Below, piece after piece: positions 8,714 to 14,417 of a stretch of 64,000 nucleotides of DNA (positions are counted from its first letter, which is position 1; each line of letters opens with the position of its first letter). The translations under genes were made by a program, and so were the position numbers. The stretch spans positions 6,040 through 70,039 of the forward strand of contig JAEKLQ010000036.1 in assembly GCA_019509785.1 (NCBI GenBank), given 5' to 3'. The notes beneath the pieces were generated by a model, which saw only the letters and a list, made by a program, of their open reading frames with translations, did not search any database and was not told where the DNA came from. Source of the DNA: Fibrobacterota bacterium. Its GTDB lineage: Bacteria; Fibrobacterota; Fibrobacteria; UBA11236.

Positions 8714-9343
8714 CTAATGCGGCGAAGGGGAAACGCCGCGGAGATCCACGGCCGTATCGGCGGGGCCGGCGGCGATGGGATAGTAGGCCATGCCGGTAGG
8801 CGACGACAAGCTCCCGATCGCGATCACCGCCAGGGATTCCGCCGGGACATGGGGTAACCGCAAGGTTTCCCCTGCCCCCTCGCGGCGGGCGTAAACGTCG
8901 CTGCCCGGAAGGAAGGCGTAGGCGTCGGGCGGAGCGTCCGCCGGGAGATAAACGGCCAGGGTACGCGCGGCGGCAAGCTCGGAGGCCACCGTCAGGGTCT
9001 CCCCGGCGGCCAAGGCGTGGGCGGGATGGATCCAGTCCATGCGCGGCTCCGTCGGATGCAGGACTTCCAGGGTGAAGGCGCCCATGGCCTTCCCCGTGAA
9101 ACGGAACTCCCCGTACGCATCCGTGAAAGCCGTGCGCGTCGCACCCGCAGCGGAGTCCATCACCGGATTGTATCCGGCGGGCATCAGGATCACTTCCGCC
9201 CCGGACACCGCTACGCCTTGGTCCATCACCTGGCCTTGAACCAAGGCGTTGCCGACGTCGGTTCCGCCTCCGCTCACGCACCCGGACGGCAGCAATACGG
9301 CGAGGGCCAGGCCCGTGCCCGCTAATGCGCAGCGCGCCCTCAT
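8714..9343 (-). CDS. lipoprotein with GGGTDVGN motif, coupled to TIGR02147 regulator
   Basis: A 209-residue lipoprotein. The signal peptide ends in a lipobox (LLPSGC, Cys22), followed by GGGTDVGN (25-32) and a beta-sandwich that reads like a carboxypeptidase regulatory-like or Ig-type domain: VQGQVMDQGVAVSGAEVILM, then FTDAYGEFRFTGKAMGAFTL. The rest is low in recognisable motifs. Its ATG overlaps the stop codon of the upstream regulator gene (ATGA, 9340-9343), so translation of the two is probably coupled. The pairing suggests that the lipoprotein and the TIGR02147 regulator work together, for example in surface sensing or as the regulated product; that is inference. Confidence 0.75.
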   Translation of the reverse strand: MRARCALAGTGLALAVLLPSGCVSGGGTDVGNALVQGQVMDQGVAVSGAEVILMPAGYNPVMDSAAGATRTAFTDAYGEFRFTGKAMGAFTLEVLHPTEPRMDWIHPAHALAAGETLTVASELAAARTLAVYLPADAPPDAYAFLPGSDVYARREGAGETLRLPHVPAESLAVIAIGSLSSPTGMAYYPIAAGPADTAVDLRGVSPSPH

Positions 9344-10236
9344 GGCGCATCCTCCTGGGTCAAGGGGAAGAGGTTGATGTTCAATTGGTACAGGCCCGCC
9401 GGCGCGGAATCGCCTTCCGCCCTTTTGAGCAGTTCCGCGCGCAAGGCTTCGATACGCGCCAACGCATGCGCATACCCTTCGGCGGAAAGGCTGAGGGTGG
9501 TGTTGGCGATCAGGCGCCGATCGGGCGGCAATTTGAAAATGGCCTGCCGCGCCAACTCCGCCATCTGCAAATGATAGGCCCGGGCCGCCCGCGCCAGCGC
9601 TCCCGGCTCCATGCCTCCGGTGGCCAAGGTCGCCTGCTTGGGCACCAGACGTCCCGCGCCTTTCGCATTCGCCGCGACCCGCGCCAGATAGCCCTTCCGT
9701 TCCAGGAAGTCCAAAGCCGCACGAATGTCCTTCGCAGGGACCGGGAAGCCGAGACGCCGCGCGATCCAGGCGGGATCTTCCGAGAAGCCCGGCAGCGCGG
9801 CCAACTCCCGGATCACGGGCAAATACCAATGCGCGAGATAGGCCGCGTCGTCATCCGCCAGGAGCGCCGGCCCATCGCGTCGCTGACGGGCCTCCAGGCT
9901 TTCCAACGCGCGGCTACGCGTCTCCACGTCCTTGGCTTGGGCGAAGCGGACCAGGTCCAGGAAATGCGCCGCCTCTTCGCCCGTCAGGCCCATGGCCTCG
10001 GCAAGACGGCTCGCCGAATCCCCGGCCAGGTTCTTCTTCCCGTCCATCACCAACTGGATGAAGTTGGGCGATGAGAACCCCGCGGCTTGGGCGAAAGCGC
10101 GGAAGGAGAAGCGTCGCGTACTCCCCTTCCGGTCGGTGTAAAAATCCCGGAGGTAGCGGCGAAAATCCGTATACGCGAAAACGGATTCCAGACCCTTGGA
10201 AGGGCCTTTCAGGGGATCGCCGGAAGCGGGCTGCAT
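9340..10236 (-). CDS. TIGR02147 / DUF4423 family regulator
   Basis: A 298-residue member of the TIGR02147 family, first defined as a paralogous group in Fibrobacter and presumed transcriptional regulators. The N-terminus carries the hallmark VFAYTDFRRYLRDFYTDRK, then an HTH-like segment (FSFRAFAQAAGFSSPNFIQLVMDGKKNLAGDSA) that includes the FIQLVMDGKKNL motif. The C-terminal DUF4423 region begins near YLAHWYLPVIRELAAL and ends near YQLNINLFPLT. ATG 10236 is chosen; ATG 10254 and a TTG at 10266 are in frame but fall inside an inverted repeat. The promoter region carries repeated half-sites, suggesting autoregulation. It is divergent from the spondin-module gene and translationally coupled to the lipoprotein gene. 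Confidence 0.85.
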   Translation of the reverse strand: MQPASGDPLKGPSKGLESVFAYTDFRRYLRDFYTDRKGSTRRFSFRAFAQAAGFSSPNFIQLVMDGKKNLAGDSASRLAEAMGLTGEEAAHFLDLVRFAQAKDVETRSRALESLEARQRRDGPALLADDDAAYLAHWYLPVIRELAALPGFSEDPAWIARRLGFPVPAKDIRAALDFLERKGYLARVAANAKGAGRLVPKQATLATGGMEPGALARAARAYHLQMAELARQAIFKLPPDRRLIANTTLSLSAEGYAHALARIEALRAELLKRAEGDSAPAGLYQLNINLFPLTQEDAP

Positions 10237-10329
10237 TGTATTCCAAATATACATTCTGGAATACAAAAAATCTTTTAAAAAGATATGTAACGCCGCTTAT
10301 CGACTAAAGACGTATTTCCAGGAATACAA
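10236..10329. promoter_or_regulatory. three GGAATACAA half-sites between divergent genes (putative operator)
   Basis: A perfect 10-base inverted repeat, TTGTATTCCA (10236-10245) and TGGAATACAA (10257-10266), overlaps the start region of the TIGR02147 gene. A third copy, GGAATACAA (10321-10329), lies 36 bases before the ATG of the spondin-module gene and is itself part of an imperfect palindrome (GTATTTCCAGGAATAC, 10312-10327). Copy centres are 21 and 63 bases apart, close to whole numbers of helical turns. The AT-rich stretch 10261-10290 probably holds the promoters. Binding by the TIGR02147 protein is inferred. Confidence 0.6.
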
Positions 10330-10364
10330 AATTCCCTTCGTCATCACCCCCATAGGAGGTTCCC

Positions 10365-12206
10365 ATGCCCAATCCCATACGATTTCGCCGCTCCCTGCCA
10401 CTGTCCCTGGCCACCCTGGCCTTGGGAGGCCTTTCCGCCTGTATGAATACGGACAAGAACGATGCGACCCAAGCCCTTACGGTTACCGTGAAAAGCAAGG
10501 CCCCCGCCTTCAGCAGCTCCGTATCCGGGACCTACGGCTCGGGCGCGGCCAAACCGGGCGCCTCCTTTACGTTCGAGTTTTATGCCGCCAAGGGGAGCCG
10601 CCTCAGCTTCGCGTCCATGTTCGGCCAGAGCAACGATTGGTTCTTCGCCCCCGACACCGCGGGCATTCCGCTCTATGACGCCGCGGGCGCGCCCGTCTCC
10701 GGGGACGTAACGGATCAAGTCTACGTATGGGATGCGGGCACCGAGGAAGACCAGCCGCCTTTGCAAGGATCCAACCAGGCGCCGCGCCAGGCCGCGCCCA
10801 ATACCGGGCCCGCCGATCCCGACGCGCATGTCCGCCGCGTGCCGGAGTTCCCGGTGGCCGCCTTCGGGTCCGCGCCCGCTAAGCCCGGCGACAGCCTCGC
10901 CTTCGAGTTCACCGCGCCCAAGGGCAGCCGCATCAGCTTCGCTTCCATGTTCGGCCAGAGCAACGATTGGTTCTTCGCGCCGGATACCATGGGAATCGAC
11001 TTGTACGACGCCTCCGGCGCGCCCCGGAACGAGGACATCACCTCGTCGATCAAGCTTTGGGACCTAGGCACCGAGATGGATGAGCCGATCGGGGCGGGCC
11101 CGAACCAGGCCCCTCGCCAGGCGGCCCCCAATACCGGCGCGGCCGATCCGGACGATAAGGTCCGCATGGTAACCGATTCCGCCTATGCGGACGTTTCCAA
11201 GATCCTCTCCGCCCGCCTGGCTTCCTTGGGCGACGGAAAGTTCCGCGTTACCCTGTCCGTGCTGCCGGAATCGCCCACGCCCCTCTCCCCCGTCGTGTAC
11301 CAGGTCCACCTGGGCCATCATGCGCTCTTCACCCCCGGCGCCAAGGATGCCGGCATGGGCCTGGAAAGGCTGGCGGAGGACGGCAATCCCAAGGAGGCCG
11401 CCATGAATCTGGCCGGATACGATTTCGGCCGCGCGGGCAATAACCTGCATGTTACCCTCATGCCGCAGGGCGGCGGCAAGTTCCAGGCCCGCATCGACGT
11501 CCTGGACGGATCGGTGACGCCGGTGGGCCCGGGCGCTTTCTCCGTCCACTCCGGAAGCTCGCCGATCTTCGCCATCGGCGCCGCCGCGCCGGCCGGCCTG
11601 GAGCGCCTGTCGGAAGACGGAAATCCCGCCGACCGGGCCGCCGCGCTGGCCATGGCGACGGGCGTAACCACGCCGCTTTCCCCGGTGGTTTGGGCCATCG
11701 CGAACAAGAAGGATCTCCTCTTCGCCCAAGGCTCTCCCGACTACGGCAAAGGCCTGGAATCCCTGGCCGAGGAAGGCAACCCGAAAGCCCTGATGGATTA
11801 CCTGGCCTCGCAAGGCATCCAATCCGGCGCCGCCGGGACCGCCGCCTTCGCCGGCGGGGCTTCGGTCTCCTTCGACGTCATGCCCCGCGAAGGCGACGTG
11901 CTTTTCCTCGCCACCATGTTCGGCCAAAGCAACGATCTCTTCTTCGCACCCGGCGGCGACGGCATCTCCCTCTGGAACGGCGCGTACCTCCGTAGCGGCG
12001 ACGTTACCGGGGACATCTCGCTTTGGGACGCCGGCACCGAAATGAACGAAGCGCCCGGCGTGGGACCCAACCAGGCGCCGCGCGAAAGCGCTCCCGGCAT
12101 GGGCGGCCCCGGCGAGGGCAAGGTGCAACCCGTCGCCGCGGTGATGGACGGGTTCGCCTATCCCAAGGTCGGGGACCTGATCGAGGTGGACTTGTCGGCG
12201 AAGTAA
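10365..12206 (+). CDS. lipoprotein with repeated spondin-type modules
   Basis: A 613-residue lipoprotein: signal peptide with lipobox LSAC (Cys26), then repeated pieces of the Spondin_N domain. The C-terminal half-module of that domain (SFASMFGQSNDWFFAPD, then a WDxGTE motif and NQAPRQAAPNTG) occurs near residues 45-160 and 165-275 and again near 500-600 (MFGQSNDLFFAPG). Between them lie three N-terminal half-modules containing PLSPVV or equivalent and GLExLxEDGNP (about 293-345, 373-425 and 435-480). The AGGAGG ribosome site lies 5 bases before the ATG. Spondin-type domains are surface or matrix adhesion modules, so a cell-surface binding role is plausible. It is divergent from the TIGR02147 regulator, which probably controls it. 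Confidence 0.8.
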   Translation: MPNPIRFRRSLPLSLATLALGGLSACMNTDKNDATQALTVTVKSKAPAFSSSVSGTYGSGAAKPGASFTFEFYAAKGSRLSFASMFGQSNDWFFAPDTAGIPLYDAAGAPVSGDVTDQVYVWDAGTEEDQPPLQGSNQAPRQAAPNTGPADPDAHVRRVPEFPVAAFGSAPAKPGDSLAFEFTAPKGSRISFASMFGQSNDWFFAPDTMGIDLYDASGAPRNEDITSSIKLWDLGTEMDEPIGAGPNQAPRQAAPNTGAADPDDKVRMVTDSAYADVSKILSARLASLGDGKFRVTLSVLPESPTPLSPVVYQVHLGHHALFTPGAKDAGMGLERLAEDGNPKEAAMNLAGYDFGRAGNNLHVTLMPQGGGKFQARIDVLDGSVTPVGPGAFSVHSGSSPIFAIGAAAPAGLERLSEDGNPADRAAALAMATGVTTPLSPVVWAIANKKDLLFAQGSPDYGKGLESLAEEGNPKALMDYLASQGIQSGAAGTAAFAGGASVSFDVMPREGDVLFLATMFGQSNDLFFAPGGDGISLWNGAYLRSGDVTGDISLWDAGTEMNEAPGVGPNQAPRESAPGMGGPGEGKVQPVAAVMDGFAYPKVGDLIEVDLSAK

Positions 12207-13823: not shown

Positions 13824-14417
13824 ATGAAGACGCCCATGCATAGCCCGGCGCGTAAATTCGTGATGTTTGCCACGATTTCTATTTCTTCGGCGCTCGTCGC
13901 CTGCTCCAGCAATTACAGCAGCACCGGTTCGACCGCCGGGCTCTACGACACCACGTCCGCCATCGCCGCCTTGCGGGGTTATACGGACAGTACCATCCGC
14001 GGTACGGTGCGGTTCCGGCAGGAAGGCGATTCCGTAACCGTCGCGACCGACGATATTACCGGGCTGACCGGCACCATGTACGAACTGCAAATCCGCCAGA
14101 GCGGGAATTGCCTCTCCCCGGAGTCCAGCGGTGGCGCGTTCCCACCGGGAAATGACTCGAATTCGATTGCGGATAGCCTCGCGGGCCGCATCCAGTTGGG
14201 GACTTCCGGAACGGGCTCGGGAACCTTCCGTACATCGGTCCTCAGCCTGAACCCTTCGGAAAACGCGTCCATCATCGGCCGCAGCGTCGTCCTGCAGGCG
14301 CGCACCAACATGGAACCGCCCCAGGCCGGCGTCAGCGTTTGGACCAACGTCGCTTGCGGGATCATCACCCAGGGCAACGTGGCAGACACGTCCCGCACCG
14401 CGCGCGGCGCCTATTGA
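13824..14417 (+). CDS. Cu/Zn-superoxide-dismutase-like lipoprotein lacking metal ligands
   Basis: A 197-residue lipoprotein (lipobox LVAC, Cys27) whose mature part follows the SodC fold in order: GTVRFRQEGDSVTV, then ITGLTGTMYELQIRQSGNC, SSGGAFPP, SIIGRSVVLQA and NVACGII. The two disulfide cysteines are kept (Cys96, Cys178). Every recognisable metal position is changed: the GFHIHE histidines are Gln89 and Arg91, the SAGGHF histidine is Ala105, the VVxHA histidine is Gln158, and the catalytic Arg before ACG is Asn175. Dismutase activity is therefore not expected. It may be a structural or binding protein on the SodC scaffold. AGGAGG precedes the ATG. A GC-rich hairpin follows the stop. Confidence 0.7.
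   Translation: MKTPMHSPARKFVMFATISISSALVACSSNYSSTGSTAGLYDTTSAIAALRGYTDSTIRGTVRFRQEGDSVTVATDDITGLTGTMYELQIRQSGNCLSPESSGGAFPPGNDSNSIADSLAGRIQLGTSGTGSGTFRTSVLSLNPSENASIIGRSVVLQARTNMEPPQAGVSVWTNVACGIITQGNVADTSRTARGAY

Follow-up and report, generated by a model that had tools for sequence, protein, structure and literature searches.

The 129-bp gap between two divergent genes of a Fibrobacterota bacterium contains three exact copies of a short repeat and a degenerate fourth copy, and these are very probably operator half-sites read by the adjacent TIGR02147 regulator, which would repress its own gene and would also control the divergent gene. The whole stretch of DNA analysed, 64,000 nucleotides in length, is called the window below. 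The features of the region were the following:

8714 to 9343, minus strand: partner lipoprotein, with an LPSGC lipobox, a GGGTDVGN motif and a weak CarboxypepD_reg match
9340 to 10236, minus strand: TIGR02147/DUF4423 regulator of 298 aa, assigned by profile match and predicted structure
10236 to 10245, minus strand: half-site 1, TTGTATTCCA on the plus strand and TGGAATACAA on the minus strand, with the A of the regulator ATG as its end base
10246 to 10251, minus strand: TATATT, probable -10 element of the regulator, lying within the inverted repeat and 9 nt upstream of the ATG
10257 to 10266, plus strand: half-site 2, TGGAATACAA, which pairs with half-site 1 as a perfect inverted repeat with an 11-bp spacer
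10312 to 10319, minus strand: GTATTTCC, a degenerate inverted counterpart to half-site 3, read as GTATTTCC-A-GGAATAC
10320 to 10329, plus strand: half-site 3, AGGAATACAA, 63 bp from half-site 2
10354 to 10359, plus strand: AGGAGG, ribosome-binding site of the spondin lipoprotein, recognised from the sequence
10365 to 12206, plus strand: divergent lipoprotein with repeated spondin modules, assigned by profile match, the probable co-target

A preliminary description of this DNA had placed a TIGR02147 regulator and a spondin-module lipoprotein on the two sides of the gap, and had claimed three copies of a repeat in the divergent promoter region, one of them inverted, two of which formed a perfect 10-base inverted repeat. 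All of this was borne out. The regulator belongs to the family, with scores of 217.8 bits against the TIGR02147 profile (cut-off 50) and 97 bits against DUF4423 (cut-off 30), and the profile search showed the divergent gene to encode a multi-module spondin lipoprotein, the only gene with spondin domains in the genome. The start of the partner lipoprotein overlaps the stop of the regulator via ATGA. Elsewhere in the window (13824-14417) a small lipoprotein-like gene matches the Cu/Zn superoxide dismutase domain. Exact copies of GGAATACAA were located at 10236-10244 (minus strand), 10258-10266 (plus) and 10321-10329 (plus), all confined to 94 bp, and no further copy was present in the 64 kb. Half-sites 1 and 2 match each other exactly as an inverted repeat (10236-10245 and 10257-10266). 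The 27-bp core of the latter, GTATTCC-N13-GGAATAC, occurs only once in the 5.4-Mb genome at 0 mismatches, and the three matches with 1 mismatch are all within ORFs. A wider TGTATTCC-type regulon was not found in the source genome.

The AlphaFold2 model of the regulator, built from an 84-member alignment (pLDDT 91), comprises an N-terminal XRE-type HTH, a middle domain that resembles a winged helix and a pair of long C-terminal helices. The HTH, a candidate for sequence-specific DNA binding, is predicted with high confidence. Its best PDB structure matches were HigA antitoxins, some of them bound to operator DNA, while the remainder of the protein gave MarR-type folds; a search of the PDB with the full-length fold gave no significant match (best E 0.12) and the PDB sequence search gave marginal matches only. 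Like the HigA-type antitoxins with their palindromic operators (PDB 7csy, 7csw, 6lb3), the regulator has the N-terminal HTH fold and an operator candidate at its own promoter, but it carries the extra winged-helix-like domain and the C-terminal helices and has no toxin partner. The adjacent HigB-like toxin gene expected for a HigA antitoxin was not found; the neighbour is the lipoprotein with the weak CarboxypepD_reg match. The controllers of restriction-modification systems of the C.BclI type (PDB 2b5a), which control their own gene from multi-site operators, gave a weak profile match to the HTH (E 0.018), but the TIGR02147 regulator is much larger and no restriction-modification genes were seen adjoining it. 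The C-terminal domain weakly resembles the winged-helix regulators MarR, PadR and TrmB in structure and profile; the resemblance covers only part of the protein, with insignificant E-values.

The position of the inverted repeat suggests what it may do. The regulator ATG is at 10236-10234 on the minus strand, and its A is shared with the last base of the proximal GGAATACAA copy, so the overlap of the site with the regulator's own start, as described earlier, is real. A scan for consensus promoters and terminators gave nothing, and no full sigma-70 consensus was seen. TATAAT-like hexamers in the family upstreams cluster at -20 to -11 from the ATG, with TATATT the most frequent, and from this clustering the TATATT of the window is probably the -10 box of a near-leaderless regulator start. 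Many TIGR02147 upstreams of the genus lack an evident Shine-Dalgarno sequence and have TATACT or TATATT 6-10 nt upstream of the ATG, which suggests leaderless mRNAs. Autorepression is the reading that best suits an inverted repeat which brackets the probable -10 box and has one base in common with the ATG: a regulator dimer on 10236-10266 would cover the -10 box and the start and would shut down the regulator-lipoprotein operon. The distal near-palindrome (10312-10329) is situated some 36 bp upstream of the spondin ATG, and through it the same protein may control the divergent gene. Binding by the regulator, its dimerisation, repression as opposed to activation and the control of the divergent gene are all inferred; the autorepression put forward in the preliminary description is plausible from the site position.

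Alternatively, the TIGR02147 protein might bind the boxes as an activator, or might activate the spondin gene and repress itself as a divergent switch, which we consider unlikely. In the relatives the sites are placed over the -35 region or upstream of it, as would also suit an activator: the proximal half-site of the Fibrobacter loci is at or just upstream of -35, and that of three orthologs in the genus (L115, L147 and L170) is upstream of it. In the window, however, two half-sites bracket the probable -10 box and touch the ATG, a placement typical of occlusion.

Less can be drawn from the spacing of the sites. The centre distances of the 10-mers in the gap are 21 and 63, which are numerically whole helical turns as had been pointed out, but the cooperative looping proposed on that basis gains little. 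Phasing alone is weak evidence, since roughly one arbitrary spacing in four comes within 1 bp of whole turns. The half-site spacings in Fibrobacter are 20-23 and 70-74 bp, which makes phasing suggestive only; a distance of 70 bp does not correspond to whole turns.

For the autoregulatory operator favoured here, conservation before related regulators would also be expected. The search for homologues of the window regulator gave none with more than 39% identity, and direct footprinting on orthologs was therefore impossible; instead, members of the family were collected together with their upstream DNA (236 TIGR02147 proteins). In addition, 126 genomes of the class were scanned, blind to genes, with the pattern TGTATTCC-N0-28-GGAATACA. 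This gave 21 sites in 20 genomes, and the reversed control pattern gave 0. Eleven of the 21 sites were inside long ORFs, and the remaining ones were upstream of a TIGR02147 gene in 10 out of 10 cases, namely in the window and in nine Fibrobacter loci, one in each of nine other genomes; by estimate, the 200 bp upstream of such genes make up about 0.14% of a genome. The half-site which the preliminary description proposed to look for near related genes in Fibrobacterota is thus present there: the promoter region of the window regulator contains an inverted repeat, and the site is conserved before related regulators.

The form of the site was TGTATTCC-W-GGAATACA (W = A/T) in eight of the nine Fibrobacter loci and a longer-spaced version in the ninth, and in 9/9 the site ended about 113-116 bp before the conserved TIGR02147 domain. 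In the Fibrobacter group the half-sites recur at approximately -131, -121 (inverted), -110 and -40 from the ATG. The arms are mostly 1 bp apart, as against 11 bp in the inverted repeat of the window; copy 3 of the window with its partner, read on the minus strand (TGTATTCCTGGAAATACG), is equal to the Fibrobacter palindrome TGTATTCCTGGAATACA plus one inserted base; on the plus strand, GTATTTCC-A-GGAATAC is likewise longer by one base than the Fibrobacter palindrome GTATTCC-A-GGAATAC. The Fibrobacter loci count as approximately one evolutionary event because most of them are close relatives. In Fibrobacter group A (L032-L059), pairs of TTGTATCAT-type boxes stand upstream of TIGR02147 orthologs of several species, at a distance of 74 bp from each other (73 in one case). 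In the tree, the neighbours of the window gene are, with modest support (0.89, 0.80), L107, a Myxococcales protein, and the genus orthologs L115, L147 and L170. The upstream DNA of these nearest genus relatives keeps a conserved GTATCC-TTAT-GGAATAC, in line with the conservation looked for near related genes; that of L107 contains GAATAC-N5-GTATTC, and that of a further relative, L106, GTATACAA-A-TTGTATAC.

Other members of the family have other palindromes. The source genome has 36 TIGR02147 matches, and between 23 and 79 per genome were counted in five relatives from the genus. None of the other paralogs of the source genome has an exact half-site nearby, as expected if the sites are private; some of them (L014, L016, L024) have repeated boxes of their own, e.g. 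GTACACTTTTGTGTAC, GTTCTCAA in three copies and TGTGCGCA. Palindromes with arms of at least 8 were found in 20.5% of the genus TIGR02147 upstreams, compared with 7.1% for neighbouring genes and 3.6% for shuffles; for the Fibrobacter set that matched the window gene best by BLAST the corresponding values were 40%, 6% and 7.5%. Direct repeats were modestly enriched, the longest exact one reaching at least 9 in 24% family-wide and in 17% of random pieces of the same loci. In nine of 26 ortholog groups a palindrome lay within the upstream conservation beyond column permutation at p<0.05 (8 at p<=0.01), and some of these conserved palindromes may be terminators of the preceding gene. When two predicted palindromes, each specific to one group, were looked for in 11 genomes, TGTTTCCA-N2-TGGAAACA was found before TIGR02147 genes in 3/3 cases and CGTTTAC-N4-GTAAACG in 5/14, the latter being not exclusive to those upstreams. 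At L280 and L284, CGTTTAC palindromes were also seen about 2-3 kb from the TIGR02147 gene, roughly at the operon end, possibly marking a further target gene. Recognition helices look alike where sites look alike (SPNFIQLV with TTGTAT), but this is an impression only, since a crude test of co-variation between recognition helix and shared upstream 8-mers, with an imperfect null, gave no signal beyond permutation. The different palindromes indicate that different ortholog groups appear to read different sites.

These observations bear on the possibility that a different, global transcription factor acts on TIGR02147 promoters through the boxes. The link between regulator and boxes is a predicted one and the same half-site was found in another genus, as a global factor would allow, but the inverted repeat is unique in the source genome, and distinct TIGR02147 groups with distinct palindromes argue that each regulator reads its own site, which makes such a factor very improbable. 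A chance repeat in AT-rich intergenic DNA is highly unlikely: the gap has 36% GC and an inverted repeat with arms of at least 10 alone appeared in 15 of 3000 dinucleotide shuffles of the 129 bp (0.5%), but three copies of a 9-mer appeared in none of 3000 (the largest three-copy word was 7), and in other genomes, too, the same word precedes members of the family.

Regulators with palindromic operators at their own promoters are an ordinary kind of system. The DNA target of this family and the probable system of many private operators coupled to lipoproteins appear to be undescribed; in agreement with the earlier statement, our literature search found no DNA target for TIGR02147/DUF4423 proteins, TIGR02147 being met in no paper and DUF4423 only in a proteome list. 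Translational coupling of these regulators to a surface lipoprotein is usual: a lipoprotein-like gene overlaps the 3' end of the TIGR02147 gene in 128 of the 236 loci, with the exact ATGA overlap in 73, and 48 of these 128 genes have a G-N motif after the lipobox (GGGTDVGN, AGSETGNP). Partner genes of TIGR02147 carry CarboxypepD_reg, laminin-G, LRR or Fib_succ_major domains.

We tentatively propose, as a wider model that is somewhat less likely to hold than to fail, that Fibrobacterota have dozens of switches working in parallel and insulated from one another, in each of which a TIGR02147 protein with a private multi-half-site operator is translationally coupled to a surface lipoprotein; the window would contain one of these, with the spondin gene as an extra target. 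If this is true, a paralogous TIGR02147 family with 23 to 79 members per genome individually controls a repertoire of surface lipoproteins. The family is strongly expanded in Fibrobacterota (36 matches here, up to 79 in a relative) and no target or function was found described for it. The half-site TTGTATTCC, its Fibrobacter version and the group-specific palindromes make the family testable, and they point to the control of surface lipoproteins.
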